Shown piece by piece: positions 60 through 41,880 of a stretch of 64,000 nucleotides of DNA (the first letter of the stretch is position 1; every line of letters begins with the position of its first letter). Source of the DNA: Siphonodentalium dalli (Eukaryota > Mollusca > Scaphopoda > Gadilida > Siphonodentaliidae); assembly GCA_032622095.1 (NCBI GenBank), contig CP136069.1, positions 5,256,976 through 5,320,975 of the forward strand, given 5' to 3'. The notes under the pieces were generated by a model. The model did no database searches. It saw only the letters and a list, made by a program, of their open reading frames with translations, and was not told where the DNA came from. A program made the translations under genes and the position numbers.

Positions 60-1253
60 TGTGACAGGCCGCCTTGTAAGCCAGAGCATTCTCTTATATA
101 TGCGAGGCTCACTATGGGAGACTCGCATATACAAGAGAATGCACTGGCACAGGATATTTAATGCTGTACCAGCGCAGCTCCCATCATGAAAGTGGCTCCC
201 TATGGGAGACTCGCATATACAAGAGAATGCACTGGCACAGGATATTTAATGCTGCACCAGCGCAGCTCCCGTCATGAAAGTGGCTCCCTATGGGAGACTC
301 GCATATACAAGAGAATGCAATGGCACAGGATATTTAATGCTGCACCAGCGCAGCTCCCGTCATGAAAGTGGCTCCCTATGGGAGACTCGCATATACAAGA
401 GAATGCACTGGCACAGGATCTTTAATGCTGCACCAGCGCAGCTTCCGTCATGAAAGTGGCTCCCTATGGGAGACTCGCAGATATAAGAGAATGCACTGGC
501 ACAGGATCTTTAATGCTGTACCAGCGCAGCTCCCGTCATGAAAGTGGCTCCCTATGGGAGACTTGCATATACAAGAGAATGCACTGGCACAGGATCTTTA
601 ATGCTGCACCAGCGCAGCTTCCGTCATGAAAGTGGCTCCCTATGGGAGACTCGCAGATATAAGAGAATGCACTGGCACATGATCTTTAATGCTGCACCAG
701 CGCAGCTCCCGTCATGAAAGTGGCTCCCTATGGGAGACTCGCATATACAAGAGAATGCACTGGCACAGGATATTTAATGCTGCACCAGCGCAGCTCCCGT
801 CATGAAAGTGGCTTCCTATGGACGACTCGCAGATATAAGAGAATGCACTGGCACAGGATCTTTAATGCTGCACCAGCGCAGCTCCCGTCATGAAAGTGGC
901 TCCCTATGGAAGACTCGCAGATACAAGAGAATGCACTGGCACAGGATATTTAATGCTGCACCAGCGCAGCTCCCGTCATGAAAGTGGCTCCCTATGGGAG
1001 ACTCGCATATACAAGAGAATGCACTGGCACAGGATCTTTAATGCTGCACCAGCGCAGCTCCCGTCATGAAAGTGGCTTCCTATGGGAGACTCGCATATAC
1101 AAGAGAATGCACTGGCACAGGATATTTAATGCTGCACCAGCGCAGCTCCCGTCATGAAAGTGGCTCCCTATGGAAGACTCGCAGATATAAGAGAATGCAC
1201 TGGCACAGGATCTTTAATGCTGCACCAGCGAAGCTCCCGTCATGAAAGGGTTA
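60..1253. repeat. 88-bp tandem array (about 13 units) built from a TTAA-4 element
   Basis: From about 104 an 88-bp unit recurs with very few changes. It starts GGCTCCCTATGGGAGACTCG, continues with the right arm of a hairpin (CATATACAAGAGAATGCACT) and ends CAGCTCCCGTCATGAAAGT. Unit starts at 194 and 282 fix the period. The left hairpin arm (CCAGAGCATTCTCTTATATA) occurs only once, at about 80-106. Only the last unit ends in the transposon terminus CATGAAAGGGTTAA (1240-1253). The array therefore looks like one TTAA-4 MITE whose right half was amplified in place. Point variants (CATATACAAG versus AGATATAAG) alternate between units. Confidence 0.9.
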
Positions 1254-1281: not shown

Positions 1282-1694
1282 CAGTAATGCCCTAAATAAA
1301 CGACTCCTTATCCACAGCAGAATTATGGGTAATTTTTCAGGATTTAGTCGGGAATATGGCTTGTTGTCCTTCATCGGCAAGCCATATTTCCGACTAAATC
1401 CTGAAAAATTACCCATAATTTTGCTGTGGTTAACCCTTTGAGTGCCAGGTCCGATTTTTGTATCAACCCATATACCCTGTGCCAATGCATTCTCTTATAT
1501 ATGCGAGTCGACCATAGGTCGCCTCGCATATATAAGAGAATGCATTGGCTTAGCAATTTTTTTTTTTACAATTTTTTACAATTTTAATATATTTTATTAT
1601 ATTCTTTAACAGACTTATTGTGTAGGTTTAGGGCCGATAATATCGGCCCCTGGCACTCAACAGGTTAAGGAGTCGATTATTTAGAGCATTACTG
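1282..1694. mobile_element. TA-1 palindromic MITE (pogo/Tigger-like), interrupted
   Basis: The left end is TA|CAGTAATGCCCTAAATAA and the right end is GAGCATTACTG|TA. The two arms are inverse complements that meet near 1372. The right arm is split after TGCTGTGG by a TTAA-1 element (1430-1668). The arms also contain the family's ATGGCTTGTTG and TTTAGTCG words. CAGT-type ends with a TA duplication fit the pogo/Tigger branch of Tc1/mariner. No transposase is present. Confidence 0.88.
1430..1668. mobile_element. TTAA-1 MITE nested in TA-1
   Basis: TTAA|CCCTTTGAGTGCCAGG stands at the left and CCTGGCACTCAACAGG|TTAA at the right. Removing it with one TTAA restores the uninterrupted TA-1 arm (GCTGTGG-TTAA-GGAGTCG), so the TTAA duplication is demonstrated here. 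Inside lie the 67-bp palindromic core at 1482-1548, a T-rich stretch, and a small GGGCCGATAATATCGGCCC palindrome near the right end. Ends and target fit piggyBac-type elements. Confidence 0.9.
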
Positions 1695-3471: not shown

Positions 3472-3870
3472 TTAACCCTTTACCCAACAGAAGGGCCCTG
3501 TGCCAATGCATTCTCTTATATATGCGAGTCGACCATAGGTCGCCTCGCATATATAAGAGAATGCATTGGCTTAACACATTAAAAATTATAAAATTGTTAA
3601 AGAATGTAAGAAAAAATGGTAAAAAGTGTTAAAAAATATTTTTTTTAGGCCAATGCATTCTCTTATATATGCGAGGCGACCTATGGTCGACTCGCATATA
3701 TAAGAGAATGCATTGGCACAGGTCATAACTGTAACTATCACAATGTGGTCAAGGAGCCGGTTCCAATGATATCCATATTTGTATGGTTCTATTGAGACAG
3801 ACCGAAGATATTTTAGACTGTTGAAGCTTTATTTGGCCGGTTTTGGCCGGTTTGTTGGGTAAAGGGTTAA
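3472..3870. mobile_element. TTAA-3 MITE with two hairpin cores
   Basis: TTAACCCTTTACCCAACAGA stands at the left and TTGTTGGGTAAAGGGTTAA at the right. Two copies of the CCAATGCATTCTC palindromic core (about 3508-3575 and 3650-3718) flank an AT-rich centre. The right portion holds TATGGTTCTATTGAGACAGA and TTGAAGCTTTATTTGGCCGG, which are diagnostic of this family. Confidence 0.85.
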
Positions 3871-4597: not shown

Positions 4598-4828
4598 TTA
4601 ACCCTTTGAGTGCCAGGGGCCGATCTCATCGGCCCTAAACCTACAAAATAAGTCTGTTAAAGAAAATAAGAATAAATTATTAAAATTGTAAAAAAAAATA
4701 ATTTGTTAGGCCAATGCATTCTCTTATATATGCGAGGCGACCTATGGTCGACTCGCATATATAAAAGAATGCATTGGCACAGGGTATATGGGTTGATACA
4801 AAAATCGACCTGGCACTCAAAGGGTTAA
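4598..4828. mobile_element. TTAA-1 MITE
   Basis: Complete copy bounded by TTAACCCTTTGAGTGCCAGG and CTGGCACTCAAAGGGTTAA. It contains the palindromic core (about 4710-4778) and GGGCCGATCTCATCGGCCC near the left end. It is inverted relative to the copy at 1430-1668. Confidence 0.9.
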
Positions 4829-5064
4829 CACATCTCGTATCTTGTTCTTGACCAAAATTGCATTAGTTTTTGTTTATTATCCAATTTCATAGCCTGTGCT
4901 AAGTATACAAACCAAAGTAGTGAGATATTACTGACAAATATAAGAAATGTGGCTATGTTCACAAAATTACTGTCAAACATAATGTCAGGCTCAAATACAA
5001 CCGACCAGACATTTGGCTATTTTGCATCTGACAATGTCCGATGTTAGGTGGTTAATTGTTGGTA

Positions 5065-5832
5065 CAGTAATGCCCTAAATAAGCGACCCCTTAACCACAG
5101 CAGAATTATGGGAAATTTTTCAGGATTTAGTCAGAAATATGGCTTGCTGCCATTCATCGGAAAGCTCTCACTGAGAGCTTTCCGATGAATGGCAACAAGC
5201 CATATTTCCAACTAAATCAGGGGGGGGGGGTCGGAAAAAAAATTCAGGCACGTATGGCATTTTTTCCCTTTCGATAATTTTTTGTACCCACCCACCCCCA
5301 TCGCCATATTTTTTTCCGTTTTCGGCAGTTTTTTCCGACCATTTTTTGACACCCACCCCCCTTTTAACACTAAAACAGAGATTTGCGGGGGGAATTCACT
5401 GTAAACAGCTGTATATGAATTTCTGTGCATACTATTTATCATGGATGTTAACATGGACATGTACTAGTAAATAGGAATGAGTCATTTTGAGGTCATTCGG
5501 CCAAAAAAACATGGCTGCCAGTGGCCATCTTGGATTTCAATATTTGCAACAAAATACAACACGATAACTGCCTGCAGTCAGTTTACCAGTTAGAATTACA
5601 TTATTTCTCTCATTCAAAGTGGTTTTGAAGCCCAACTCATTGCCAAAACACTGAAAAACAAGCAGGAAATTTTTTTTTAGTTGCGGAAAAAATTGCTTGT
5701 TGGTGGCTTTGACCACCCACCTACCCCGGCATATGTGCCGGAATTTTTTTTCTTCACCCCCCCTGACTAAATCCTGAAAAATTACCCATAATTTTGCTGT
5801 GGTTAAGGAGTCGATTATTTAAGGCACTACTG
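5065..5832. mobile_element. TA-1 palindromic MITE, interrupted by the G-run element
   Basis: The left arm begins CAGTAATGCCCTAAATAAGC after TA. The right arm ends TTTAAGGCACTACTG before TA. The arms meet at AGCTCTCACTGAGAGCTTTC (about 5161-5180). The second arm is split at ACTAAAT by the 548-bp insertion at 5218-5765. Confidence 0.88.
5218..5765 (+). mobile_element. G-run element copy 1 (CAGGGG...CCCCTG), 548 bp
   Basis: Begins CAGGGGGGGGGGTCGG and ends TTCACCCCCCCTG. Flanking ACTAAAT is duplicated at 5211-5217 and 5766-5772, and excision with one copy restores the TA-1 arm. The base after the target is also C, so a 7- or 8-base duplication cannot be told apart. It is non-coding. The interior includes GGCCATCTTGGATTTCAATA (about 5522-5541), a word shared with the G170 units. 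A second, inverted copy lies at 14293-14839. CAGGG-type ends are common in hAT elements, but the superfamily is uncertain. Confidence 0.88.
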
Positions 5833-6020: not shown

Positions 6021-7529
6021 TCAATATTTCCGCTTCCTCAGAATATCTGGCTTCCAGTTTAGAGGGTGCGTCTCTTCGGTGGCCGTTTCGTCCTCTTTGT
6101 ATATTTTTATTGTCTTATCCGCCTCGCATGTAATTAACCTACTACTGCTATGATCGAAAGTCATTGCGAATATTCCCGCTTCTGAATCAATCGATCCGGG
6201 TTGAGCTGCTGCCTGCGTTCTCTGAAAATTATAACCAGTTCTCCAGTCCCAAAAATGCATGCTGCCATTATCTCCGCCCGACACCAAGACGTTATCGGAA
6301 TTCATCGCAAGTGCATTTAGGATTGAGTTGTGGCCGGGGAGATTTTGGATGAAGTTACCGTCAGGAAATTTCCACTGCTTGATGTTATCTGGCGAAGCTG
6401 ATGCGAATGTGTACTGTGTCGGATGAAGCGCTAGAGCACGGACGCTCTTCTTATGATTTGTTAAGGTGACGAGAGACCGTCCCGCAGCGAGATCCCATAA
6501 TCTTATCGTACAATCATGACTTCCTGTTATGATTTGTGGATCGGCTGCTTGACATCTGATGGACGCGACGGTATTCTGGTGCCCTGCTAATGTGTGGACG
6601 CATGCTTTCGTTCTCATATCCCAAACTCTCGCCGTTGAATCTCTTCCACATGTCACCAATACATCGATTGTCGGATGAACGTCGAGAGCGTAACACGCAC
6701 TCAAATGTCCGTGATAGTGACGAATTACTTTGTTGTATTCGAGGTCCCAGCATTTGACTTGTTTATCTTCACCGCACGAGAATAAATATGGATTTCGTGG
6801 GCTTACGGCGAGACCGCGAACCGAGCTGACGTGACCAGTCAGAGATAATTTGAGCGTGCCCGTTGCTAGGTCCCATATCTTAATCATGCGATCGGCCGAT
6901 CCAGTGCAGAACCATTCATTACCCGGCTCCACCGCCAAACATCTCACCCACCCAGAATGGCCACTGATAACGCGATATAACTTCCACGGAGGATGCCAAT
7001 TCGGTTTAGGCATTGTGGGAGCTTTACGTGGGACGATAGCCTGCTGTTGACCGATCGTAACGACAATACTTTTCGACGTTGGATCCATTCTCTCTGGATG
7101 CCCAGCTTTTCTTCGGATATCAGCGACGCTGGCACCGGTTGGGATTTCAGGAACGCGGTTTCTATCATACAGCATCAGCTGACCTTCCTCGCTTGGAGCC
7201 GTCTGCTGTGAGCTTCCGTCGTTAAGTCTCATCCCCGGCCCCGACGGATACGGATGCGTTCCTTTTATCTCCACTTTCTCGCCGGCTTTCCAATTCTCGT
7301 CTCCATAGTGTCCAATGACATCATTCTCCGACTTCTGTTCGCTGTTTTCTTTCGGCATGTCTTTAATGTGACGGTAATCTGATTTGACCTTGACATTCTT
7401 TTTCAGTTGTTCGGCCTTCGAGTCACGCTCCAGTGGGTTCTCCCGGTCCGATATGAACATGTCGTGCGTTCTTTTAAGTGATCTGAACACCAGCGTGTGA
7501 ACAGAGTGTTTCTGTACCTCCTCCGTCAT
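6021..7529 (-). CDS. PLRG1: PLRG1: WD40 spliceosome (Prp19/NTC) subunit, intronless
   Basis: The ORF is 502 codons with an AUG at 7529-7527 (A at -3) and a TGA at 6023-6021. The protein begins [20 protein letters not shown], the characteristic PLRG1 N-terminus. It carries the conserved linker [19 protein letters not shown] (169-187), then seven WD40 blades at roughly 184-222, 227-262, 269-304, 311-346, 353-387, 394-428 and 445-478. The WD dipeptides at the blade ends are clear: IWD 218, CWD 260, VWD 302, LWD 344, FWD 426. It closes with [13 protein letters not shown] and a basic tail RKRKY. Human PLRG1 is about 514 residues, so this copy is full length. The family acts in the nucleus in the CDC5L/PRP19 complex and is needed for pre-mRNA splicing; that is family knowledge. 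The odd point is that no intron interrupts the frame, although vertebrate PLRG1 has many. No poly(A) tract is visible just past the stop, so a recent retrocopy is not evident. No frameshift or stop was seen; it is more GC-rich than its surroundings. Confidence 0.97.
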
Positions 7530-7606: not shown

Positions 7607-7857
7607 ATAACCCTTTGAGTGCCAGGGGCCGATATTATCGGCCCTAAACCTACACAATAAGTCTGTTAAAGAATATAATACAATATATTAAAATTGTAAA
7701 AAATTGTAAAAAAACAAAAACAAAACAAAATTGTTAAGCCAATGCATTCTCTTATATATGCGAGGCGACCTATGGTCGACTCGCATATATAAGAGAATGC
7801 ATTGGCACAGGGTATATGGGTTGATACAAAAATCGGACCTGGCACTCAAAGGGTTAA
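7607..7857. mobile_element. TTAA-1 MITE just upstream of PLRG1
   Basis: The left end reads ATAACCCTTTGAGTGCCAGG (one target base decayed) and the right end CCTGGCACTCAAAGGGTTAA. The palindromic core is at about 7739-7806. It lies about 80 bp upstream of the PLRG1 start codon, so it is placed to affect that gene's promoter or 5' UTR. That effect is inference only. Confidence 0.88.
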
Positions 7858-8030
7858 TAGATTGAACAGAGCGAAGGGATGTGTAACTCTAAAATCAGAC
7901 CATGTGACAATACCCTCCTTTATAAGAGTGCGGGTTTATGTATACTTGTAGACATGGGGTGTAATTCTATTTTAAATAACATAATGCTAACTATGCGATT
8001 GTGTATTATGTTGACAAAAGGCTCTTATAA

Positions 8031-8249
8031 TTAACCCTTTAGAGAGCCCCACATAGACTGCAGCAGACGACACTCTGTAGTGCATGCTTCCATCTGTGTG
8101 AGGCTCCCTGTGGGTTAAACATTAAACTTTAATATCACCTCGGTTATTAACCCTTTAGAGAGCCCCACATAGACTGCAGCAGACGACACTCTGTAGTGCA
8201 TGCTTCCATCTGTGTGAGGCTCCCTGTGGGTTAAACATTAAACTTTATA
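8031..8249. repeat. TTAA-5 tandem pair, second unit cut by TA-1
   Basis: TTAACCCTTTAGAGAGCCCC starts at 8031 and again at 8147, opposite in orientation to the array at 1817-2288. The second unit runs to AAACTTTATA, where the element at 8250-8451 is inserted. Its remainder (TATTGCCTCAGTTATAG) resumes after that insertion. Confidence 0.82.
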
Positions 8250-8451
8250 CAGTAATGCCCTAAGTAATCGACTCTTTAACTACAGCAGAATTATGGGTAA
8301 CTTTTCAGAATTTAGTCAGAAATATGGCTTGTTGCCATTCATCGGGGAGAGCTTTCCGATTAATGGCAACAAGCCATATTTCCGACTAAATCCTGAAAAG
8401 TTACCCATAATTCTGCTGTAGTTAAAGAGTCGATTACTTAGGGCATTACTG
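8250..8451. mobile_element. TA-1 palindromic MITE, intact, in a TTAA-5 unit
   Basis: A near-perfect palindrome from TA|CAGTAATGCCCTAAGTAA to TTACTTAGGGCATTACTG|TA. The host unit would read ACTTTATATTGCCTCAG without it, so the TA duplication is directly supported. The centre is at CATCGGGGAGAGCTTTCCG. Confidence 0.92.
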
Positions 8452-8464
8452 TATATTGCCTCAG

Positions 8465-8606
8465 TTATAGGAAGTCTAGCATATATAAGAGAATGCTCTG
8501 GTTTACAAGGTCAAGGAAATATTGTTAGGCCAATGTATTCTCTTATATAAGAGAATGCATTGGCACAGGGTTTTCGCAAAATTTCAGAAAGCTCCAACCG
8601 AAGGCT
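8465..8606. mobile_element. TTAA-4 related fragment
   Basis: Contains TATATAAGAGAATGCTCTGG, GGTCAAGGAAATATTGTTAG, a shortened palindromic core (about 8530-8566), and CACAGGGTTTTCGCAAAATT with AGAAAGCTCC. These last words are the interior of TTAA-4 (compare 40540-40580). The CCCTTT termini are missing. Confidence 0.6.
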
Positions 8607-8670
8607 CTTTAAATAACAGCGTTTCGAGATATGAGCATGTTTATGTCCAAAATGAGGGTGTCTTGGACTA

Positions 8671-8883
8671 CAGTAATGCCCTAAGTAATCGATTCCCTAA
8701 CCACAGCAGAATTATGGGCAACTTTTCTGGATTTAGTCGGAAATATGGCTTGTTGCCATTCATCAGAAAGCTCTCGAGGAGAGCTTTCCGATGAATGGCA
8801 ACAAGCCATATTTCCAACTAAATCCTGCAAAATCACCCATAATTCTGCTGTGGTTAGGAAGTCGATTACTTAGGGCTTTACTG
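8671..8883. mobile_element. TA-1 palindromic MITE
   Basis: CAGTAATGCCCTAAGTAATC follows TA, and the copy ends GGGCTTTACTG|TA. Full-length arms fold around AAGCTCTCGAGGAGAGCTTT. A few substitutions between the arms indicate moderate age. Confidence 0.92.
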
Positions 8884-9957: not shown

Positions 9958-10884
9958 TCCATAAAAGTTAAATTTTATATTATATTATTTTATATTAGAT
10001 TTAAATATAAATTTAAAGTTTTTGAATGCAGCATCCAAGTTATTCTATTTTTTTATTTTTTGGCCCTGGAGATTTGTGGTATAAAATCTTGAGTTATATT
10101 TCTACGATCATTATAACTTTTAACTAGGGTGTGAATTATCAGGATTTTGTTGATCTTTTTTGGTATGGCTAGATTCACCACTTACATGTAGCATTGTTGC
10201 TCTGAAAAGACCAACAACTGAGATTCGAATATATTTTGGTATAGGGGTCGTATAGGGGTCGTATAGGTGTCGATTAATACGAGAGAAATAATACCTATAT
10301 CCAGTGAGTTTCACAAGAGTTGCGGGCCTTTTTGAACTCGGAAAGAGCCAAATTGTTCTTCATAGAAACATTCAGAATGTCCCGCTCTCTAAACAGATTG
10401 TTGGGGGTTATCAAAGGTTATGTTCCGCTCTCTAAACAGATTGTTGGGGGGGGGCATAAAATGTTACCAGTACCGCAGTACGTCCCGGACACTCTCTAAA
10501 CAGATTGTTGGGGGCCTTCAAAGGTTACACAAATTGACCTTGCAAGGCTTTGGCTATGTTGACAACAGTGTAATTCAAAATGTTCATTCATCTGCTTGCA
10601 TGCCACTATTTATGCAAACAATACCTATTCCTGTAGTCCTCATACATTGCATACACACCATTATTTATGTAAACACAAACTCTTCCTGTAGTCCACTTAT
10701 TTTTGATCAATTCAAGGATAATTTAAAAACATTTCTAAAGTAAATGAAACATATCCAAACTAGCATATCTCATTCATTCAATGAGATACTATGGACAAGG
10801 TAGATTTGTGTAATTTTGAGAACACAGGTCGATTTCTAAGATCATAGAATGTCGCCAAATTCCATTCTGTGTACGAAGAGCCCA
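9958..10884. other. no gene; short tandem repeat at 10388-10512
   Basis: Mostly AT-rich sequence without coding signs. Within it CTCTAAACAGATTGTTGGGG occurs three times (about 10387, 10431, 10494) with divergent spacers. Just before, GTCGTATAGG recurs three times (about 10247-10270). A 107-codon ORF at 10420-10743 starts inside this repeat and has no recognised features. Confidence 0.55.
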
Positions 10885-13490
10885 TTGACCCTTTCTCCAC
10901 TAAATACTCATTGACGAGTAGTTACCTTATTAACACTTTCTCTACTAAATACTCATTGACAATTAGTTACCTTATTAACCCTTTCTATCTAAATATTAAT
11001 TGACGAGTAGTTAACCTTATTAACCCTTTCTATCTAAATACTCATTGACGAGTTGTTACCTTATTAACCCTTTCTCTACTAAATACTTATTAATGAGTAA
11101 TTACCTTATTAACCCTTTCTATCTAAATACTAATTGATGAGTAGTTACCATATTAAACTTTCTATCTAAATACTCATTGACGAGTGGTTACCTTATTAAC
11201 CCTTTCTCTACTAAATACTCATTGATGAGTAGTTCCCTTATTAACCCTTTCTCTACTAAATACTCATTAACAAGTAGTTACCTGATTAACCCTTTCTATA
11301 CTAAATACTAATTGATGAGTAGTTCCCTTATTAACCATTTATACACTAAATACTAATTATATATATATATACCTTTATTTCCTCTGTAATACAGAGAGCT
11401 TACATATAATGAACAGGAACACAATACAATGATAATTAGTATTTACAGACATTTAACACGAAGAAAATCAAACGTATATACATGTACACCACGCATAAAT
11501 AGCACACATGCACACACCCTAACACACTACAACCGCTCTCAAATACTCACACACACGCACCCTTGTAGACACAACCATACATACACACATACATACACAT
11601 ATACATACACACGTGTACATTTCCCTTATTAACCCTTTATATACTAAATACTAACTGATGAGCAGTTCCCTTATTAACCATCTCTATACTAAATACTAAT
11701 TTATGATGAGTTCCCTTATTAACCCTTTATATACTAAATACTAACTGATGAATAGTTCCATAATTAACACTATCTATACTAAATACTAATTGATGAGTAG
11801 TTCCCTTAACCCTTTCTATACTAAATACTAATAGATGAATACTTCCATAATTAACACTATCTATACTAAATACTAATTGACAATTAGTTACCTTATTAAC
11901 CCTTTCTATCTAAATATTAATTGACGAGTAGTTACCTTATTAACCCTTTCTATCTAAATAATCATTGACGAGTAGTTACCTTATTAACACTTTCTATCTA
12001 AATACTCATTGATGAGTAGTTACCTTATTAACCCTTTCTCTACTAAATACTCATTGATGAGTAGTTCCCTTATTAACCGTCTATATACTAAATACTAATT
12101 GATAAGTAGTTCCCTTATTAACCCTTTCTATATTAAATAATCATTGATGAGTAGTTACCTTATTAACCCTTTCTATACTAAATACTAATTGATGAGTAGT
12201 TCCCTTATTAACCCTTTCTATCTAAATATTAATTGACGAGTAGTTACCTTATTAACCCTTTCTATCTAAATACTCATTGACGAGTTGTTACCTTATTAAC
12301 CCTTTCTCTACTAAATACTTATTAATGAGTAATTACCTTATTAACCCTTTCTATCTAAATACTAATTGATGAGTAGTTACCTTATTAAACTTTCTATCTA
12401 AATACTCATTGACGAGTAGTTACCTTATTAACCCTTTCTCTACTAAATACTCATTGATGAGTAGTTCCCTTATTAACCCTTTCTCTACTAAATACTCATT
12501 AACAAGTAGTTACCTGATTAACCCTTTCTATACTAAATACTCAATGATGAGTAGTTCTCTTATTAACCTTTTCTATACATACACACGTGTACATTTCCCT
12601 TATTAACCCTTTATATACTAAATACTAACTGATGAGCAGTTCCCTTATTAAACATCTCTATACTAAATACTAATTTATGATGAGTTCCCTTATTAACCCT
12701 TTATATACTAAATACTAACTGATGAATAGTTCCATAATTAACACTATCTATACTAAATACTAATTGATGAGTAGTTCCCTTAACCCTTTCTATACTAAAT
12801 ACTAATATATGAATACTTCCATAATTAACACTATCTATACTAAATACTAATTGACAATTAGTTACCTTATTAACCCTTTCTATCTAAATAATCATTGACG
12901 AGTAGTTACCTTATTAACCCTTTCTCTACTAAATACTTATTAATGAGTAGTTACCTTATTACCACTTTCTATCTAAATACTCATTGATGAGTAGTTACCT
13001 TATTAACCCTTTCTCTACTAAATACTCATTGATGAGTAGTTCCCTTATTAACCGTCTCTATACTAAATACTAATTGATAAGTAGTTCCCTTATTAACCCT
13101 TTCTATATTAAATACTCATTGATGAGTAGTTACGTTATTAACCCTTTCTATACTAAATACTAATTGATGAGTAGTTCCCTTATTAACCCTTTCTACACAA
13201 AATACTAATTGATGAGTAGTTCCCTTATTAACCATTTCTACACTAAATACTTATTGATGAGTAGTTCCCTTATTAACCATCTCTATACTAAATACTAATT
13301 GAAGAGTAGTTCCCTTATTAACCATTTCTATACTAAATACTTATTGATGAGTAGTTCCCTTATTAACCCTTTCTATACTAAATACTTATTGATGAGTAGT
13401 TCCCTTATTAACCGTCTCTATACTAAATACTTATTGATGAGTAGTTCCCTTATTAACCTTTTCTATTCCAAGACGAGTAGTTCCCTTAGG
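10885..13490. repeat. 45-bp minisatellite, over 50 units, with higher-order duplication
   Basis: The unit is TTAACCCTTTCTATACTAAA, then TACTAATTGATGAGTAGTTC, then CCTTA. Shorter 42-44-bp variants contain CTATCTAAAT. The start of each unit matches the TTAACCCTTT terminus of the TTAA elements. Sequence from about 10979 reappears near 12211 (offset 1233), and sequence from 11611 reappears at 12585 (offset 974). This shows a 1.23-kb internal duplication followed by loss of about 259 bp. Fifteen-codon pseudo-ORFs (MSSSLINPFYTKYLL) are by-products. Confidence 0.9.
11345..11610. repeat. non-repeat segment with CA/TA microsatellite inside the 45-bp array
   Basis: The array is broken by (TA)n, then TTTCCTCTGTAATACAGAGA (containing the small palindrome CTCTGTAATACAGAG), then about 100 bp of ACACATACATAC-type repeat. 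It ends at TACACACGTGTACAT. Only this final word survives in the second copy of the duplication (about 12575-12594). The segment was therefore probably present before the duplication. Confidence 0.75.
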
Positions 13491-15015: not shown

Positions 15016-15449
15016 TTAACCGTTTCAGTGCCAGGGGCCGATCTAATCGGCCCTAATTTACAGTCTGTAAAATCGGCCCTATAAAAATTTGATTTTTTGG
15101 GATTGAATTTTTTTTGGGTATGCTAAATTAAGCATGCTATAGCGAATTTAAACTGGATAAAACCTTAGGGGCATGCTATAACTCAAAACTATCACCAAGT
15201 ATTCATAGTAATAATTTTGATGCCCATGAAAAACGTAAGATTCCCTGGCACTAAACCTACAAAATAAGTCTGTCAAAGAATATAAGAAAAAATTATTAAA
15301 ATTGAAAAAATTGTAAAAAATAATAACAAATGATGAAAAATTGTTAGGCCAATGCATTCTCTTATGGCCGACTTGCATACATAAGAGAATGCATTGGCAC
15401 AGGGTATATGGGTTGATACAAAAATCGGACCTGGCACTGAAAGGGTTAA
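15016..15449. mobile_element. TTAA-1/TTAA-2 mosaic MITE, long form
   Basis: Left end TTAACCGTTTCAGTGCCAGG, right end CTGGCACTGAAAGGGTTAA. The right part is a normal TTAA-1 interior with a damaged palindromic core (CATTCTCTTATGGCCGACTTG, about 15350-15398). The left part has an extra 200 bp (TTTGATTTTTTGGGATTGAA, GCATGCTATAGCGAATTTAA) not seen in the other copies. Confidence 0.75.
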
Positions 15450-16754: not shown

Positions 16755-17007
16755 CAAGCCTTGAAATAGGGTGTCTGTCATTGCAGAATGAGGTCCCCAG
16801 AGGGTGAATTTAGTTATGCTACCCCGCATAGCGGGCTAGCATCACCAAATTCACCCTCTGGGAACCTCATTCTGCTGAGGTGTAAGCAGAATGAGGTCCC
16901 CAGAGGGTGAATTTGTAGATGCTAGCCCGCTATGTGGGGTAGCATCACTAAATTCACCCTCTGGGGACCTCATTCTGTAAATGACAGACACACTATTTCA
17001 AGGCTTG
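16755..17007. mobile_element. H8-1 element with perfect 8-base duplication
   Basis: CAAGCCTTGAAATAG and CTATTTCAAGGCTTG form the ends. GACGTCAC is duplicated exactly at 16747-16754 and 17008-17015. The 253-bp body is two back-to-back copies of the GAGGTCCCCAGAGGG hairpin separated by GAGGTGTAAGCAG. Confidence 0.92.
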
Positions 17008-17676: not shown

Positions 17677-17900
17677 TTAACCCTTTGAGTGCCAGGTCCG
17701 ATTTTTGTATCAACCCATATACCCTGTGCCAATGCATTCTCTTATATATGCGAGTCGACCATAGGTCGCCTCGCATATATAAGAGAATGCATTGGCCTAA
17801 CAATTTTTCATCATTTTTTTTTTTTTTTTTTTTTTAGGGTCGATTTTACAGACCATAAATTAGGGCCGATGAGATAGGCCCCTGGCACTGAAAGGGTTAA
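17677..17900. mobile_element. TTAA-1 MITE joined to TTAA-3
   Basis: TTAACCCTTTGAGTGCCAGG to CCTGGCACTGAAAGGGTTAA, with the palindromic core at about 17728-17795 and a long T run (17811-17835). Its last TTAA (17897-17900) is also the first TTAA of the next element. The two therefore sit back to back on one shared target. Confidence 0.88.
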
Positions 17901-18292
17901 CCCTTTACCCAACAAACCGGCCAAATAAAGCTTCAACAGCCAAAAATATCTTCGGTCTGTCTCAATAGAACCATACAAATATGGATATCATTGGAACCGG
18001 CTCCTTGACCACATTGTGATAGTTACAGTTATGCCCTGTGCCAATGCATTCTCTTATATATGCGAGTCGACCATAGGTCGCCTCGCATAATTTTATATAA
18101 GAGAATGCATTGGCCTAAAAAAAAACTTTTTTTAACACTTTTTACCATTTTTTCTTACATTCTTTAACAATTTTATAATTTTTAATGTGTTAAGCCAATG
18201 CATTCTCTTATATATGCGAGGCGACCTATGGTCGACTCGCATATATAAGAGAATGCATTGGCACAGGGCCGTTCTGTTGGGTAAAGGGTTAA
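17897..18292. mobile_element. TTAA-3 MITE with two hairpin cores
   Basis: TTAACCCTTTACCCAACAAA to GTTGGGTAAAGGGTTAA. Palindromic cores lie at about 18038-18115 (the first loop enlarged with AATTTTA) and 18193-18260. The composite 17677-18292 is flanked by near-identical TTAAGGATGGAYTATCTCTT words on both sides. Confidence 0.87.
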
Positions 18293-19849: not shown

Positions 19850-20068
19850 TTAACCCTTTCAGTGAGTGCCAAGTCCGATTTTTGTATTAACCCATATTTC
19901 CTTGATCATTTTTCAAATTTATTGATTATAATAATGTGATACATTGATGGAAAGAGATCTAAGAGCTCTTTCCATCAATATATCACATTATTATAATCAA
20001 TAAATTTGAAAAATGATCAAGGAAATATGGGTTGATACAAAAATCGGACTCGGCACTGAAAGGGTTAA
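19850..20068. mobile_element. TTAA-2 MITE, complete palindrome
   Basis: TTAACCCTTTCAGTGAGTGC to GGCACTGAAAGGGTTAA, with long arms folding at AAGAGATCTAAGAGCTCTTT. A 4-base GTGA/AGTG stutter near the left end separates it from the copy at 24971. Confidence 0.9.
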
Positions 20069-21171: not shown

Positions 21172-21427
21172 TTAACCCTTTGAGTGCCAGGGGCCGATCT
21201 CATCGGCCCTAAACCTACAAAATAAGTCTGTTAAAGAATATAAGAACAAATTATTAAAATTGTAAAAAAAATTAAAAAAAAATTAAAAAAAAATTGTTTA
21301 GGCCAATTTTTAATGCATTCTCTTATATATGCGAGGTGACCTATGGTCGACTCACATATATAAGAGAATGCATTGGCACAGGGTATATGAGTTGATACAA
21401 AAATCGACCTGGCACTCAAAGGGTTAA
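21172..21427. mobile_element. TTAA-1 MITE
   Basis: TTAACCCTTTGAGTGCCAGG to CCTGGCACTCAAAGGGTTAA. The core at about 21303-21376 has an extra TTTTTAA after GGCCAA in the left arm, so the hairpin is imperfect. Confidence 0.9.
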
Positions 21428-23008: not shown

Positions 23009-23408
23009 TTAACCCTTTACCCAACAAACCGGCCAAAACCGGCCAAGTAAAGCTTCAACAGCCTAAAATATCTTCGGTCTGTCTCAATAAAACCATACAA
23101 ATATGGATATCATTGGAACCGGCTCATTGACCACATTGTGATGGTTACAGTTATGCCCTTTGCCAATGCATTCTCTTATATATGCGAGTCGACCATAGGT
23201 CACCTCGCATATATAAGAGAATGCATTGGCTTAAAAAAAATCTTTTTTTAACACTTTTTACCATTTTTTCTTACATTCTTTAACAATTTTATAATTTTTA
23301 ATGTGTTAAGCCAATGCATTATCTTATATATGCGAGGCGACCTATGGTCGACTCGCATATATAAGAGAATGCATTGGCACAGGGCCCTTCTGTTGGGTAA
23401 AGGGTTAA
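23009..23408. mobile_element. TTAA-3 MITE with two hairpin cores
   Basis: TTAACCCTTTACCCAACAAA to CTGTTGGGTAAAGGGTTAA. Cores lie at about 23162-23229 and 23310-23377. Same orientation as 17897-18292 and opposite to 3472-3870. Confidence 0.92.
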
Positions 23409-24272: not shown

Positions 24273-24424
24273 CAATCCTTGAAATAGGGTGTCTGTCATT
24301 TGTAGAATGAGGTCCCCCAGAGGGTGAATTTAGTGATGCTACCCCGCATAGTGGGCTAGCATCACTAAATTCACCCTCTGGGGACCTCATTCTGCAAATG
24401 ACAGACACCCTATTTCAAGGATTA
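24273..24424. mobile_element. H8-1 minimal element, 152 bp, perfect duplication
   Basis: Ends CAATCCTTGAAATAG and CTATTTCAAGGATTA. ATTTTATA is repeated exactly at 24265-24272 and 24425-24432. It contains one GAGGTCCCCCAGAGGG hairpin with the loop CCCCGCATAGTGGG, making this the simplest complete copy of the family here. Confidence 0.92.
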
Positions 24425-24452: not shown

Positions 24453-24644
24453 TTAACCCTTTGAGTGCCAGGGGCCGATATTATCGGCCCTAAACCTACA
24501 CAATAAGTCTGTTAAAGAATATAATAAAATATATTAAAATTGTAAAAAATTAAAATTGTTAAGCCAATGCATTCTATTATATAATGCATTGGCACAGGGT
24601 ATATGGGTTGATACAAAAATCGGACCTGGCACTCAAAGGGTTAC
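24453..24644. mobile_element. TTAA-1 MITE with collapsed core
   Basis: TTAACCCTTTGAGTGCCAGG to CCTGGCACTCAAAGGGTTA. The palindromic core is reduced to CCAATGCATTCTATTATATA followed by ATGCATTGG. The central GCGAGGCGACC loop is gone, as expected from slippage at a hairpin. Confidence 0.88.
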
Positions 24645-24654: not shown

Positions 24655-25800
24655 GTCCTGGAGTGGGATTAGAACATCAAAACAATCGAAAGTGAATTGA
24701 TATGGCGACAAAAAGTATGCATAAGTTACTGACTGTGAAATTATTGTGATAAAATATGGAAATAATGTCCGCCTCCAGCATAATGCAAGTCAAATCGTAA
24801 ACAATTAACACATCCGCGTAACAACATACCAACCACGAGGTCATGACCTTCAACTGAAATACTTTAAATTATTCTCCTCAGACCCACCCCCCCCCCCCCC
24901 CCCCCGACAACAAAAAAATAGCACATTAGTGAAAAGTGTGAACCCCCCCCCCCCCCCCATTTTCAGTAACTTAACCCTTTCAGTGCCAAGTCCGATTTTT
25001 GTATCAACCCATATTTCCTTGATCATTTTTCAAATTTATTGATTATAATAATGTGATACATTGATGGAAAGAGCTTTTACAGCTCTAAAAGCTCTTTCCA
25101 TCAATGTATCACATTATTATAATCAATAAATTTGAAAAATGATCAAGGAAATATGGGTTGATACAAAAATCGGACTTGGCACTGAAAGGGTTAAATGCTA
25201 CTGCATGTGTTTTGTAGTGTCAGATAGAAATTTTTATTCAAATTAATGCCAGATAACAATGAATTTTATATCATGAGTCAAAAATAACTAACAATAAATA
25301 AGCTGGGATCAGAACAATCGAAAGTTAATTGATATGGCGACAAAAAGTATGCACGAGTTACTTAGTGAAATTATTGTGATCAAATATGGAAATAATGTCC
25401 ACCTCCAGCATAATGCAAGTCAAATTGTAAACAATTAAAAGTCATTCATTGCGAATAACACATCCGCGTAACAACATACCAACCACGAGGTCATGACCTT
25501 CAACCGAAATACTTTAAATTATTCTCCTCAGCCCCCCCTCCAGCATAATGCAAGTCAAATCGTAAACAATTAAAAGTCATTCATTGTGAATAACACATCC
25601 GCGTAACAAGATACCAACCACGAGGTCATGACCTTCAACCGAAATACTTTAAATTATTCTCCTCAGCCCCCCCCCCCAGCATAATGCAAGTCAAATCGTA
25701 AACAATTAAAAGTCATTCATTGCGAATAACACATCCGCGTAACAAGATACCAACCACAAGGTCATGACCTTCAACCGATATATTTGAAATTATTCGCCTC
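24655..25800. repeat. about 135-bp tandem repeat (plus one separated copy), interrupted by TTAA-2
   Basis: The unit starts CCAGCATAATGCAAGTCAAA and contains CACATCCGCGTAACAACATA and GAGGTCATGACCTTCAAC. Unit starts at 25405, 25540 and 25676 give a period of 135-136. An earlier copy with its own flank (TATGGCGACAAAAAGTATGC) lies at 24655-24890. Units end in C runs, including about 20 C at 24887-24905. GGTCATGACC is a perfect 10-base palindrome in each. Confidence 0.85.
24971..25194. mobile_element. TTAA-2 MITE, complete palindrome
   Basis: TTAACCCTTTCAGTGCCAAG to CTTGGCACTGAAAGGGTTAA. The arms are almost identical, with the pivot at AGCTTTTACAGCTCTAAAAGCT. This is the best-preserved TTAA-2 copy in the window. 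Confidence 0.93.
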
Positions 25801-26141: not shown

Positions 26142-26206
26142 TATACAAACAAATCTGTATGTTCCCAGCCAGCTGGTTTAAAAATTAAATTCCATGCAAT
26201 GAACTA

Positions 26207-26394
26207 CAGTAATGCCCTAAATAATCGACTCCTTAACCACCGCAGAATTATGGGTAACTTTTCAGGATTTAGTCGGAAATATGGCTTGTTGCATTCATCG
26301 GAAAGCTCTCGATGAATGGCAACAAGCCGTATTTCCGACTAAATCCTGAAAAGTTACCCACAAATCACCTTGAGTGATTATTTAGAGCATTACT
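26207..26394. mobile_element. TA-1 palindromic MITE, shortened loop
   Basis: TA|CAGTAATGCCCTAAATAATC to TTATTTAGAGCATTACTG|TA. The hairpin centre is reduced to GGAAAGCTCTCGATGAATGG, and part of the right arm has been replaced. Confidence 0.9.
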
Positions 26395-35550: not shown

Positions 35551-36012
35551 TATGTGACCCGCCATATCAAATCCAGTCGTAAGTCGGCATTTTTTTACCC
35601 TGTGCCAATGCATTCTCTTATATATGCGAGTCAACCATAGGTCGCCTCGCATATATAAGAGAATGCATTGGCCTAAATTGTTTTTACAATTTTAATAATT
35701 TTTTCTTGTATTCTTTAACAATTTTATAATTTCACCCATACAGAGCCCCAGACAAACATGAGCAGACGACACTCTTCTATATGCTTCTATATATGTGTGG
35801 GGCTCCCTGCAGGGTAATGGATGTTTTTTATTTTATGTCCTAAAAATTGTAAGAAACATTTATTTTAAAAAAATGATAAAAAATTGTTAGGCCAATGCAT
35901 TCTCTTATATATGCGAGGTGACCTATGGTCGACTCGCATATATAAGAGAATGCATTGGCACAGGGTAAAAAAAATCCCGACTTACGACTGGATTTGATAT
36001 GGCGGGTCACAT
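35551..36012. mobile_element. TA-2 MITE, complete
   Basis: TATGTGACCCGCCATATCAA and its inverse TTGATATGGCGGGTCACATA are the ends; the inverted match continues for over 35 bases (AATCCAGTCGTAAGTCGG). Inside are two palindromic cores (about 35605-35673 and 35892-35959). Between them lies a TTAA-5-like module (AGAGCCCCAGACAAACATGA ... GTGTGGGGCTCCCTGCAGGG). TA duplication is probable. Confidence 0.85.
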
Positions 36013-37232: not shown

Positions 37233-37555
37233 ATATGTGACCCGCCATATCAAATCCAGTCGTAAGTCAGCGTAAGTCGGGATTTTTTTACCCTGTGCCA
37301 ATGCATTCTCTTATATATGCGAGGCGACCTATTGAGTCGACCATAGGTCGCCTCGCATATATAAGAGAATGCATTGGCCTAACAATTTTTTATTGTATTC
37401 TTTAACAATTTTATAAATTCACCCATACAGAGCCCCAGACAAACATGAGCAGACGACACTCTTCTATATGCTTCTATATATGTGTGGGGGCTCCCTGCAG
37501 GGTAATGGATGTTTTATATTTTATGTCCTAAAAATTGTAAGAAACATTTATTTAA
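37233..37555. mobile_element. TA-2 MITE, left end only
   Basis: TATGTGACCCGCCATATCAA at the left, with a local duplication in the end (GTAAGTCAGCGTAAGTCGG). One palindromic core has its loop duplicated (GCGACCTATTGAGTCGACC, about 37308-37377), followed by the AGAGCCCCAGACAAACATGA module. The right half is missing. Confidence 0.78.
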
Positions 37556-39540
37556 AGGATTTATTCGGTCTAGAAACTACAAAACGCAATCGGAAAGCCC
37601 TCCCTGTTGTGATTAAAATGATCCAAGTCCCATTCCGATCGCATAATAAATAACCCGTAAAATAAATAAATAATACCACCACCGGTATTCAGAGATTTCC
37701 GTGACTAAACTACGAGTGACGTACTTGTGGGGAGCAAATTAAAAACACAGATTCGGAGCTGGAGTTTATTATGCAGACTACGATGACGTAATCGTAAGTC
37801 AACCGATACTAAAATGCAGAGTCGTATGCGAGCGTGTGGTGTATAGATTACGTTACGCTTTGGCCGTTTATCTGGAATAGAAGACAATAATTATGTGAAT
37901 AAAGTAATTAATAGCGCCTAGAATGGTTGTTTTTGTAGCCATTAATAACATGCCGGCACCTGTCTGTTTCGGTAAATAGATGGCAGTAATTAGTGCTTTG
38001 ATTGTCTCTCGTATTCACTCGGTGATTTGTAATCACTCAGTGACTATTCATCAGTGTCAGTCGCGAACTTGTTTGCACTCTAAAATGCCACAAAGTGAAT
38101 AGAAAGAACATTATCTCTCTGGTCATACATATATAAGAAGCGCCCAAATTTATATAAACACTGGGCTGAATAATGTTAACTCTATTTAGGCGCTTTTGTT
38201 TTGTGTCTGTTTGTTGTTTTACTTTCGATATAAATATCCCGAGTATCTGTCATGATGTCATCTCCACATATTCCAAGATGCCTAGTAGATGTAGTGTGTT
38301 CAGTTGTGGGCGGGCTAGCGATCCATTATTTAGTACCTCCAAAAAGACAACACAGTGCGTAATTTAGAACGCTCTTTATTGTCTATCGCTTTTGGGAGAC
38401 GGAAGCATGGACGCTCTTTATATTTAATTGTCACAATACCACATACAAAATCACCCATGACTTATCGAAATAGAGGACATTCATAATTGAGAATGCCCTT
38501 TGTTGTCTACACCGCGACGAAAACATGGACGCTCTTTATTAGAGGCAATCATTGGAGTTTTTCTAGGCTAACAATTCAAAAAAATCCTCTCTAGAACGTC
38601 AATCAAAACGTAAAATAAAACGAACAACAAACACAAACTGAAAAACAATGCCAGGCTAGCCTTCAATTAAAAAAATGTCGTTATGCCAAACTGCAGCCTA
38701 ACTAATAATTATTGTAGTTTCAACAGTCTGTTGTGTATTCGAGTGAATTATTTTGTTTACTCACTTATCGATCTTGACTGGAAGGATTTTAGCAAGCTGT
38801 TCACAGTCGTGCACTTCTCCACACAAAATGTTTCGTGTGAAGAAACAGACAGGAACATTATAATGACGAATATAAGCCATCATGATACATGTACTGGTAC
38901 AATAACCACCACCTTTTTAATCACACCCCATTTGTATTTAATTGTACGCATATAGCGCACAACGGGATGACACTAGTGTGTAAACTATCTTCCGAAATTG
39001 GTACCATACAACGAAGAATGAAGTACCAGTATATGGCCTAACTTGTATTCTTTCAGAAACAGTTAAATTAATTTCGCACGAAATTCCGCTCGCGCATTGC
39101 ATTTCTGCATAAATTAATCTTATTTCAAACAACTTTTATCGCCTCAAAGTGCATTTTAGCCATCATTATTCGTTATATAATCCAACATTCTAGCAAAGCC
39201 AGTTCATAATTCAGCACATTCAAACAGTTTTATTCCGTAATCGCTATTTATCGTAAAGGCTTAGGTAATTAACCAGCGTAATTTATCAACTCGTTACGCG
39301 ATTGGCGGAATTTATTTCAAGCTCCACCCACCGCTGTCATCGGTAAGGGTCGATGCAGATGATCGGTCATGTGACCGCGTTGTGGTCATGTGATCGCACT
39401 CACGTGACTTACTTCGGATATTTCCGCGATTTTTTTAATATAATAATAATAAAAATACTATCTGCTCAATTTTGAATTTTCTTGGCGAAATGGGTCTGTT
39501 AGACATATATTATTAGTATTATGACGATAAAAAAAATATT
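37556..39540. other. low-repeat region; possible gene neighbourhood
   Basis: One of the few 2-kb stretches without MITEs. Features seen: TATATAAGAAGC (about 38129) and TTATATAAAC (about 38149) as TATA-like words upstream of a short THAP-like ORF; GACGCTCTTTAT-type words three times (about 38370, 38411, 38529), forming a loose array; and CATGTGACCGCGTTGTGGTC near 39368. No intact gene was recognised. Confidence 0.45.
38278..38367 (+). CDS. possible THAP-like N-terminus (fragment or chance)
   Basis: From the ATG at 38278 the frame reads MPSRCSVFSCGRASD and stops at 38367 after 30 codons. THAP zinc-finger proteins typically start M-P-x-x-C-x(3-4)-x-C, which this matches. The second half of the finger (conserved W and the C-x2-H pair) is absent, and I found no convincing splice donor. 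TATA-like sequences lie 130-150 bp upstream. It could be a first exon, a decayed transposase N-terminus (P elements carry THAP domains), or coincidence. Confidence 0.2.
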   Translation: MPSRCSVFSCGRASDPLFSTSKKTTQCVI

Positions 39541-39544: not shown

Positions 39545-39710
39545 TGACAGACTAATTCCTTTAAATAAAAAAAATAAAAAATGTTAGGCCAATGCATTCT
39601 CTTATATATGCGAGGCGACCTATGGTCGACTCGCATATATAAGAGACTGCATTGGCACAGGGTAAAAAAAATCCCAATGTACGACTGGATTTGGTATGGC
39701 GGGTCACATA
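39545..39710. mobile_element. TA-2 MITE, right end only
   Basis: A palindromic core (about 39588-39655) is followed by CACAGGGTAAAAAAAATCCC and the terminus TATGGCGGGTCACATA. The left half is missing, and there is no AGAGCCCC module. Confidence 0.78.
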
Positions 39711-39850: not shown

Positions 39851-40461
39851 GAGTAATGCCCTAAATTCATCAGAAAGCTCTCAGTGAGAAAAATTTGCCG
39901 GACCATTTTTTAAAAATCCACTTTTTGTCATTTTTTTCACCGATACAAGAAATTTGAGTTTTGCTATGTCTTCAGTGGCCACTTAAGAACATAATAGGTA
40001 TAAGTTATTGGTTTTATTTGCTTTGAAACTCATTATTTCTGTTTTCATTTTAGTGGGCGTGGCACCTAAAAATGGAAAATATTTGCAAAAATAAATTCCA
40101 ATTTGTTTTTTTGTGTAGTCCAAGGGTAACTATAAGGCCATTTTCAGCGTGATATCTTTTTACTTTTGACCGACCCCCCCCCCTGATTGCACAGGTAAAA
40201 ATGCTACATGTAGCTGGTCTATGCAGTTGCGAATTTTAACAATCTCACATAAAACTATTATAGATTGTTCTTCAAATAAACAAATAATTTAAAATGCTAC
40301 AAATTGTGCACACAATGTTGTGGTTATGTAAACAAATTTCAGTGAGAGCTTTCCAATGAATGGCAACAAGCCATATTTCCGACTAAATCCTGAAAAATTA
40401 CCCATAATTCTGTTGTGGTTAAGGAGTCGATTATTTAGGGCATTAAAGGGCAACATTACTG
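39851..40461. mobile_element. TA-1 copy split at its hairpin centre
   Basis: The left arm is short (AGTAATGCCCTAAATTCATC, AGAAAGCTCTCAGTGAG). The right arm is nearly full (GAGAGCTTTCCAATGAATGG ... GATTATTTAGGGCATT), with AAAGGGCAACATT inserted before ACTG|TA. The arms are separated by a 450-bp insertion at 39889-40338. Confidence 0.75.
39889..40338. mobile_element. 450-bp insertion with 8-base direct repeats
   Basis: TCAGTGAG stands at 39881-39888 and 40339-40346. The insert begins AAAAATTTGCCGGACC and ends GTTATGTAAACAAATT, so the inverted ends are weak. It contains a C run followed by CTGATTGCAC (about 40173-40190), resembling the end of the G-run element. Because TCAGTGAG lies in the TA-1 palindrome's own loop, the duplication is suggestive rather than proven. 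Confidence 0.5.
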
Positions 40462-40524: not shown

Positions 40525-40793
40525 TTAACCCTTCCATGACTAGAGCTTCCTGAAATTTTGTGAAAACCCTGTGCAAATGCATTCTCTAGTATATGCCAGT
40601 CCCCTGTATGGAGCCTCGCAATCTCGCATATATAAGAGAATACATTGGCCTAACAATATTTACCTTGACCTTGTAAGCCAGTGCATTCTCGTATATATTC
40701 GAGGCTCCCTATGGGAGATGCACATATATAAATGAATGCATGGCTCGGGATCTTATTTCTGCACCAGCGCAGCTCCCGTCATGAAAGGGTTAA
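40525..40793. mobile_element. TTAA-4 MITE, complete
   Basis: TTAACCCTTCCATGACTAGA to CCCGTCATGAAAGGGTTAA. Two hairpins occur: a core variant at about 40577-40650, and AGTGCATTCTCGTATATATT with its partner at about 40680-40735. The segment CACCAGCGCAGCTCCCGTCA is the same as in the 88-bp array at 60-1253, identifying this as the parent form of that array. Confidence 0.85.
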
Positions 40794-41052
40794 ATAATAA
40801 CCAAGGCATTATATAAAGTTTAATGTTTAACCCACAGGGAGCCTCACAGCGATGGAACCATGTACTACAAAGTGTGGTCTGCTGCAGTCTATTTGGGACT
40901 CTCTATGGGTCATGAAAGGAATAATAACTGAAGTGATATATTAATGTTTAAACTTTAACCCACAGGGAGCCTCACACAGATGGAACCATGTACTACAGAG
41001 TGTGGTCTGCTGCAGTCTATTTGGGGCTCTCTATGGGTCATGAAAGGGTTAA
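40790..41052. repeat. TTAA-5 tandem pair
   Basis: Two units (to about 40919 and 41052), each with CCCACAGGGAGCCTCACA and GTGTGGTCTGCTGCAGTCTA. Each ends with the longer GGTCATGAAAGG tail, as if fused to a TTAA-4 terminus. The first TTAA (40790-40793) is shared with the preceding TTAA-4. Confidence 0.82.
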
Positions 41053-41880
41053 TACCTGATGTATATAACAAGTCGGACATCAAGTACCCCGTAATACAGA
41101 ATGACACTTTAGAAGTTAGGCCACCACTGTGTTAATCAATGACTGAGAATCATATAAAAAACAACAAGCAGTCGCAGCTAGATCCCCCGCCAAACTGCGC
41201 TGTTGGGGAAGTGCATTCTCAATAATGTTTCCATTCTCAGTATGTGCTAAACAATTAAGAGGTGGGATTTTGTCAAAAAGCCTGGCTTGTGAACTCATTT
41301 TAGGTACTGGTCATGGGAACGAATATACCAAAAATCTTTTAAATCCGTTGACATTTGTGGAAATTAGTCCTGTGACGTCATCCATTTGCACCAAAAATAA
41401 TAAACAAAGTCCAATAACTCTGCTGAAAATATCCGGCCGGACCTGGTTTGCGAACTCGTTCTAGATACTGGTCATGTGAACTCATATACCAAAAATCTTT
41501 GAAATCCGTTGACATTTGTGGAAATTAGCCCTGTGACATCGTCCATTTGCACCAAAAATAATAAACAAAGTCCAATAACTCCGGTAAAAGTATCCGGCCA
41601 GACCTGGCTTGCGAATTCATTCTATGTAATGGTCAGGTGAACTCATATACCCAATATCTTTGAAATCCGTAGAGATTTGTGGAAATGAGACCTGTGACGT
41701 TGTCTATTTGCTCTTTGGTAAATTCAACAAAAATAATAAACAAAGTCCAATAACTCCGGTAAAAATATCTGGCCAGAACTGGCTTGCGAACTCATTCTAG
41801 GTAATGGTCAGGTGAACTCATATACCACAAATCTTTGAAATCCGTTTACATTTGTTCAAGTTATGACTCAAGTTATTACA
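41053..41880. repeat. about 175-bp tandem repeat, four units
   Basis: Units contain ATATCCGGCCRGACCTGGYT, TGCGAACTCATTCTAGGTA, TCATATACCAAAAATCTTTG, AAATCCGTTGACATTTGTGG and ATAATAAACAAAGTCCAATA. The copies decline in similarity towards 41880. The ORF at 41225-41464 is a translation of the repeat. Confidence 0.8.

Follow-up and report, generated by a model that had tools for sequence, protein, structure and literature searches.

Palindromic MITEs of the MADE1 type are short, near-perfect palindromes that give a hairpin if transcribed, and MADE1 itself transposes with a TA duplication. The hairpin described here differs from MADE1 in that it is not itself the transposing unit. The CMITEs of Acropora are several families of TTAA MITEs with different piggyBac-type TIRs and one interior (PMC2872659). 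Compared between families, this interior of ~75 bp is better conserved than the ends; tandem arrays are also known, and a new element arose by nested insertion. According to the authors all CMITE families keep the piggyBac terminal motif, and they leave the origin of the interior unexplained (PMC2872659). MER6 is a mariner MITE carrying a SINE V domain (PMC6887750), and for piggyBac the minimal ends are LE35/RE63, with a palindrome of 19 bp close to the tips (PMC11707139).

These systems were compared with the MITEs of a 64-kb window, that is, the whole stretch of DNA that was analyzed, in which the families TTAA-1, TTAA-3, TA-2 and C carry hairpins of one type, termed H1. The elements work like CMITEs and are not members by sequence. 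As in the CMITEs, different TTAA ends are joined to one conserved interior, and tandem arrays are found (PMC2872659). TTAA-1 and TTAA-3 are TTAA MITEs that combine one interior with several TIR families, and the same holds more weakly for family C. In contrast, the interior here is a near-perfect hairpin with a fixed mismatch that also occurs in a TA-flanked element, whereas the CMITE passages considered mention no hairpin (PMC2872659). A sister hairpin with compensatory changes, H2, is a further feature of the elements studied here. Regarding homology to the CMITE interior, the 82-bp hairpin module and a 60-bp query had 6 bp at most in common, and a 22-base part of the query had no match in the window. 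Both MER6 and the present elements took up a conserved interior domain between ends of a different kind of mobile element; the donor of MER6 was a SINE, whereas in the present case MITEs are both donor and recipients, and what they share is a hairpin (PMC6887750). Compared with the piggyBac ends, the outer pieces are of similar length (24-46 bp, one of 147), whereas the hairpin, unlike the palindrome near the piggyBac tips, is 67 bp long, is located on the inner side of the border and also occurs in a TA element (PMC11707139). Besides the coral CMITEs we noticed no published MITE families in which unrelated ends go with one shared hairpin, in a search that lay mostly outside subscription journals. 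What seems to be new is that the shared part is a hairpin, that its mismatch is fixed and that a TA element has it as well, the last based on one window and four TA-2 ends.

Hairpin H1 and its copies

The first-pass annotation had described a 67-bp palindromic core, which both the fold and the arm matches bear out:

1482..1548, plus strand: H1 core, identified by palindrome, arm matches, copy list and fold

One further pair extends the pairing to 1481-1549. Folded as RNA or DNA, the stem of H1 runs for 27 bp, is interrupted by one T.C mismatch and continues for 5 bp to a 3-nt loop. The folding z values were -13.6 and -13.9, and in each case none of 200 shuffles folded as well. The arm CCAATGCATTCTCTTATATA (20 bases, up to 3 mismatches) matched 61 times in the window, the 88-bp array and the sister hairpins included, versus a mean of 0.01 in 100 shuffles.

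Twenty hairpins of H1 type were listed in the window, seven in TTAA-1, six in TTAA-3 (three elements with two each), four in TA-2 and three in family C. The annotation had counted about 15-18; only the 13 hairpins with exactly 67 bp are of full length. The other seven have hairpin-internal length changes (two of seven in TTAA-1, one of six in TTAA-3, one of four in TA-2 and all three in family C). Intact H1 is present in TTAA-1, TTAA-3 and TA-2, as annotated. For the fourth family named there, TTAA-4, the claim must be narrowed, as family C, which probably corresponds to it, has altered copies only: the tip is missing from two hairpins, and that of the third (40574) comes closer to H2.

The mismatch has its T on the CCCTGTG arm and its C opposite in the 14 copies with the tip in place. 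This common orientation points to one shared ancestor and counts against repeated free insertion. Furthermore, the CCCTGTG side points to the nearer end of the host element in 20 of 20 copies (at 8530 this end is only partial). A search of the window for known structured RNA families (Rfam 15, gathering score) gave no match. The exact 21-base arm and an arm-gap-arm pattern gave no match in viral contigs, and the arm-gap-arm pattern none in genome contigs; these collections are viral and prokaryote and may omit the source genome, so that the zeros weigh little.

The shared module, its border and the host elements

The hairpins lie in the following elements:

1430..1668, plus strand: TTAA-1 element with end TTAACCCTTTGAGTGCCAGG, holding the H1 core
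4598-4828, 7607-7857, ~15230-15449 (truncated), 17677-17900, 21172-21427 and 24453-24643: other TTAA-1 copies
3472..3870, plus strand: TTAA-3 element with end TTAACCCTTTACCCAACA and opposed hairpins at 3503-3569 and 3650-3716
17897-18292 and 23009-23408: other TTAA-3 copies
35553..36011, plus strand: TA-2 element with end TGTGACCCGCCATATCAAATCCAGTCG, TA-flanked, with opposed hairpins at 35605-35671 and 35892-35958
37236..37556, plus strand: left part of a TA-2 element (right limit approximate); the tip of its hairpin, 37298-37377, has a templated insertion of 13 bp
39563..39708, minus strand: end part of a TA-2 element (left limit approximate), hairpin 39589-39655
40525..40793, plus strand: family C element TTAACCCTTCCATGAC...GTCATGAAAGGGTTAA; H2 lies at 40678-40744, and another hairpin, 40574-40648, occupies the H1 position
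42654 (hairpin 42703-42738) and ~8443-8574 (hairpin 8530-8563): partial copies of family C with the tips lost

TTAA-1 carries one hairpin; TTAA-3, complete TA-2 and family C carry two that face opposite ways. All three TTAA families start with TTAACCCTTT or a near match, family C beginning with TTAACCCTTTCATGAC, and TTAA at both ends together with the CC[C/T]T motif, as in piggyBac-type elements, was found in TTAA-1, TTAA-3 and C. Complete copies have TTAACCCTTT or a near match at both ends, with departures at 7607 (ATAA), at 24644 (GTAA), at the right end of the copy at 1430 (AACAGGTTAA) and at 40525 (TTAACCCTTC). In TA-2, TA adjoins TGTGACCC at four of four ends, and one element has both ends, where a TATA duplication is possible. 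TA-2 is a probable TA-target element, possibly of Tc1/mariner type, judged from four ends and one complete copy.

At 17677-18292 a TTAA-1 and a TTAA-3 element stand back to back with one TTAA in common (17897-17900), and a 23-bp direct repeat TTAAGGATGGAYTATCTCTTTAA flanks the pair. The TTAA-1 copy at 7607-7857 lies just upstream of an uninterrupted minus-strand WD40 ORF (6021-7529, 502 aa), which presumably resembles PLRG1. Together with the repeats, this uninterrupted gene would suit an animal genome.

The unit common to the families exceeds the 67 bp of the hairpin:

1475..1611, plus strand: shared module, CCCTGTG - hairpin - CTTAG (CYTAA elsewhere) - AT-rich spacer to TTCTTTAACA

CCCTGTG - hairpin - CYTAA was found in TTAA-1, TTAA-3 and TA-2, with single-base departures at 1482, 3650 and 23163 and a rearranged right flank at 21310. 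Often an AT-rich spacer ending in TTCTTTAACA follows: most TTAA-1 copies have it, as do two of the four TA-2 copies and TTAA-3 in its right modules; the copies at 17729, 35892 and 39589 are without the TTCTTTAACA end. Up to TTCTTTAACA the module measures 90-155 bp (11 copies). BLAST matches to TTAA-3 and TA-2 copies extend into the spacer or slightly beyond it. On the CCCTGTG side homology ends sharply at the left edge of the module, and the graded homology outside the core that was to be expected from simple common descent of the families is absent.

We then compared six outer sequences (TTAA-1, TTAA-3 on both sides, TA-2, and family C on both sides), with one representative each and thus 15 pairs. 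All meet the module at one point, the right outer sequence of family C adjoining TCCTGTG and the sister hairpin H2. Averaged over the pairs, identity drops from 0.93 in the 32 bp inside the border to 0.26 in the 40 bp outside; the last four outer columns reach 0.40-0.47, and the first base of CCCTGTG 0.67. Immediately beyond the border the six sequences have the tetranucleotides TATA, AGGG, TATG, TTTA, AAAA and AATA. Unrelated termini, as annotated, are thus what the sequence outside the border has, with the exception of the start common to the three TTAA families. This common start would fit a single ancestral MITE whose ends diverged while the hairpin was constrained, and so would the two-hairpin layout that recurs in TTAA-3, C and TA-2 and the further bases ATTTTATAA that TTAA-3 and TA-2 share past TTTAACA. 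However, an identity at random level with no long gradient, the other kind of end in TA-2 and the presence of the TTAA-1 end on a quite different interior make such a descent very improbable.

The last point is seen in relatives of TTAA-1 (four loci, seven ends), in which the outer 44 bp are alike except for a few changes, one end with a short insertion, and the interior is different past the border:

24971..25194, plus strand: TTAA-1 relative without the module, near-identical outer 44 bp and then another interior
19850-20068, 63844-63949 and 17270 (left part): further relatives without the module, sharing the outer 44 bp

Some TTAA-1 ends therefore adjoin the module and others do not, and the module in turn is joined to different ends. 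No module-free TTAA-3, TA-2 or family C element was identified in the 64-kb window. The outer sequence is 45 bp long in TTAA-1, 42 bp (left) and 45 bp (right) in family C, 45 and 46 bp (left and right, its TA excluded) in TA-2, and 24 and 147 bp in TTAA-3. A second stretch is shared as well:

35731..35817, plus strand: second piece common to families (TA-2 interior versus the 117-bp TTAA unit at 8030-8160)

Here the TA-2 interior between the hairpins resembles the 117-bp TTAA unit with 73% identity over 90 columns (E 3e-10). Thus, the mosaic build extends beyond the hairpin. One sharp border with six outer sequences and a TTAA-1 end with another interior argue for mosaicism rather than graded descent, and they uphold the annotated view that a module is common to several MITE families.

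The annotation had also considered the core as a small mobile hairpin that inserted repeatedly. The copies do not support this, since 20 of 20 adjoin an end sequence of the four host families (a partial family C end at 8530), the CCCTGTG and CYTAA flanks accompany nearly all of them, and no consistent direct repeat surrounds the hairpin. Core copies outside MITEs with a target duplication of their own were 0 of 20 in the window. A larger mobile unit is the main rival to chimeric MITEs: a former stand-alone element CCCTGTGCC...GGCACAGGG, with a hairpin at each end, would have inserted into several MITE families and spread with them afterwards. In TTAA-3 and TA-2 the CCCTGTG border is indeed found on both sides, and the TA-2 borders read TTTA and TAAA, so that a TA duplication is possible there. 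CCCT agrees with a piggyBac-type terminus (motif CC[C/T]T), and CMITE-IN, a new element formed by MITE insertion, is a precedent (PMC2872659). As no solo copy was present among the 20 in the window, no duplication at the border is common to the families, and TTAA-1 bears a single hairpin, we consider nested insertion unlikely.

How the module relates to its hosts was addressed with trees of the window copies. In a tree of 14 of the 20 copies, which omits the three left hairpins of TTAA-3 and the three family C copies, the TTAA-3 modules form one group (100/98). This alignment rejects monophyly of TTAA-1 and of TA-2 (AU p 0.009 and 0.010). Two other alignments with two column filters each, on 11 of 20 copies (17729, 35892 and 39589, where the spacer end is absent, further omitted), do not reject monophyly (p 0.23-0.31). 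For TTAA-1 and TA-2 the outcome thus varies with the alignment, and the trees do not firmly distinguish modules that cross between host families from modules that follow them. Given its diverged spacer and its own group, the sharing with TTAA-3 may be old.

Constancy of the hairpin and the sister hairpin H2

We counted substitutions against the consensus within families. In TTAA-1 (seven copies) the left end has 2 substitutions in 312 cells and CCCTGTG has 0 in 49; the hairpin has 7 in 413, three of these seven being CpG transitions. The spacer has 42 in 396, and the right tail 28 in 393. The hairpin differs from the spacer with p 6e-8, a contrast that is overstated owing to two subtypes of TTAA-1 and to the rearranged copy 17677, and it is no more constant than the left end (p 0.31). 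In TTAA-3 (three copies) the hairpins have 2 substitutions in 402 cells, versus 10 in 745 for left end, spacer and right part (p 0.23). The annotated statement that the hairpin is more conserved than the rest of each element is thus correct with respect to the spacer, but not for the TTAA-1 end, and in TTAA-3 the difference is not significant. Between families, the hairpin stands out as the constant part. By inspection its consensus is identical in TTAA-1, TTAA-3 and TA-2. Between TTAA-3 and the TA-2 copy at 35605 the anchored spacer differs at 9-10 of 46 positions and the hairpin consensus at 0 of 67 (p 2e-4 with 9 of 46), and between the same TA-2 copy and the nearest TTAA-1 copy the spacer differs at 4 of 46 (p 0.025); these comparisons are ungapped and AT-rich, and the figures are rough.

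The sister hairpin H2 occurs in family C and in an 88-bp tandem array:

81..147, minus strand: H2 (CCAGTGC on one arm; CTCAC tip variant) at the start of the 88-bp array
106..1248, plus strand: tandem array, 88 bp x 13

Its outer sequence is that of H1 and the tip differs (CTCCC/GGGAG for CGACC/GGTCG); H2 also has CCAGTGC/GCACTGG for CCAATGC/GCATTGG. In the array, 12 of 13 units start at the hairpin tip and run to ATGAAAGT, that is, half a hairpin and the right end of family C; at these 12 starts ATGAAAGT is joined to the tip stem, which reads GGCTCCC or, as a variant, GGCTTCC, and the first unit continues out of a full stem. Another repeat, present in two copies that are 82% alike (47691-47960 and 54931-55216), combines just the 3' half of H2 with the inner portion of the right end of family C; its outer end differs.

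H1 and H2 were aligned (16 sequences, 14 of them distinct; 13 H1 and 3 H2, the seven length-changed H1 omitted). In this alignment 94.8% of cells are paired and 3 of 32 pairs are changed on both sides. The covariation score is 0.072, compared with 0.035 in shuffles (0 of 500 as high) and a slid maximum of 0.031, and it comes from one H1/H2 split with two to three H2 sequences. The count of both-side-changed pairs was reached in 49 of 500 shuffles and that of further pair types in 203 of 500. The mismatch keeps its position in H1 and in two of three H2. Selection on pairing or arm-to-arm copying would each explain the covariation; copying should have erased the mismatch.

A function of the hairpin, as DNA cruciform or RNA hairpin, could by selection account for most of its constancy. 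It would possibly be a host-factor site or a source of small RNA, and such a role would be compatible with chimeric MITEs. The three stem pairs changed on both sides relative to H2 with pairing still kept, the mismatch that stays in place and the constancy of the hairpin between TTAA-3 and TA-2 agree with such a function. The single split behind the covariation, the two of five measures that are ordinary compared with shuffles, the similar pattern expected from arm-to-arm copying and a TTAA-1 hairpin no more constant than its end count against it, and the unrelated ends are left unexplained by hairpin function alone. We therefore regard selection as the main cause of the constancy as a tentative and somewhat doubtful reading.

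The length changes are of a kind that hairpins produce. The centre is deleted in 4 of 20 hairpins (8530, 15349, 24564 and 42703) and 3 of 20 contain insertions (18041, 40574 and 37298). At 37298 the inserted 13 bp match the opposite arm, which is the trace expected of a template switch in a hairpin. From these mutation types we infer that the hairpin may form in the cell.

A probable mosaic origin and other repeats of the window

We favor, as a fairly probable explanation, that the elements are chimeric non-autonomous MITEs made of interchangeable pieces, which would have arisen by template switching during repair and then amplified. The common sharp border, the TTAA-1 end that is seen both on elements with the module and on elements lacking it, and the constant outward orientation of the hairpins are the main observations behind this reading. 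The second shared piece in TA-2 and the hairpin-type mutations in the copies are in line with it. All come from one 64-kb window, in which no autonomous partner or transitional element was seen.

The repair route, the acting transposases and any active role of the hairpin we infer as follows. The end pieces, which measure 42-46 bp in TTAA-1, family C and TA-2, would each suit one transposase, and the common interior cassette would start at CCCTGTG and bear the hairpin, as an inverted pair in three of the four families. Breaks, including excision gaps, would be repaired by copying from another MITE, which would give new combinations of end and interior, and the hairpins might promote stalling and template switching during this repair. 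Combinations with competent ends would then be multiplied by a piggyBac-type (TTAA) or, for TA-2, a TA-target transposase. By analogy with the conserved central domains of SINEs, a selected hairpin cassette might even be a portable part that raises the success of the DNA-transposon ends joined to it, across superfamilies; we consider this extension speculative and rather improbable. An oriented hairpin with a sharp border gives a handle on how MITE families originate and why some interiors are retained. The marked border would allow swaps of end and interior to be counted, and it could be asked whether the interior helps transposition. If TTAA and TA elements do share the module, the swap would not depend on a single transposase.

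Several other repeats were observed in the window. Tandem units of ~117 bp bounded by TTAACCCTTT(AGAGAGCC) lie at 1811-2289, 8030-8247 and 40784-41067; these are MITE arrays, and their diverged interior is also found inside TA-2. A 45-bp tandem array (10884-11358 and 11621-13466) has TTAACCCTTT in most units, and in four units CATTGACGAGTA agrees exactly, over 12 bp, with the interior of the coral CMITEs (E 0.15 on its own). This array is possibly a distant CMITE-like array. An abundant fold-back repeat, GTAATGCCCTAAATAATCGACTCCTTAACC..., is present at 1280-1382, 5063-5171, 8237-8356, 8669-8775, 26205-26310, 40342-40445, 45086-45231, 50595-50700 and other places, and one copy sits inside a family C element near 24003. 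A near-perfect, hairpin-like palindrome, GCAGAATGAGGTCCCCAGAGGGTGAATTTAGTGATGCTA..., was found at 16783-16977, ~24300-24395 and 51760-51955. Finally, a 31-bp tandem array of ~76 copies at 52253-54465 lies in an open frame of 774 codons from stop to stop and has a strong GC skew.
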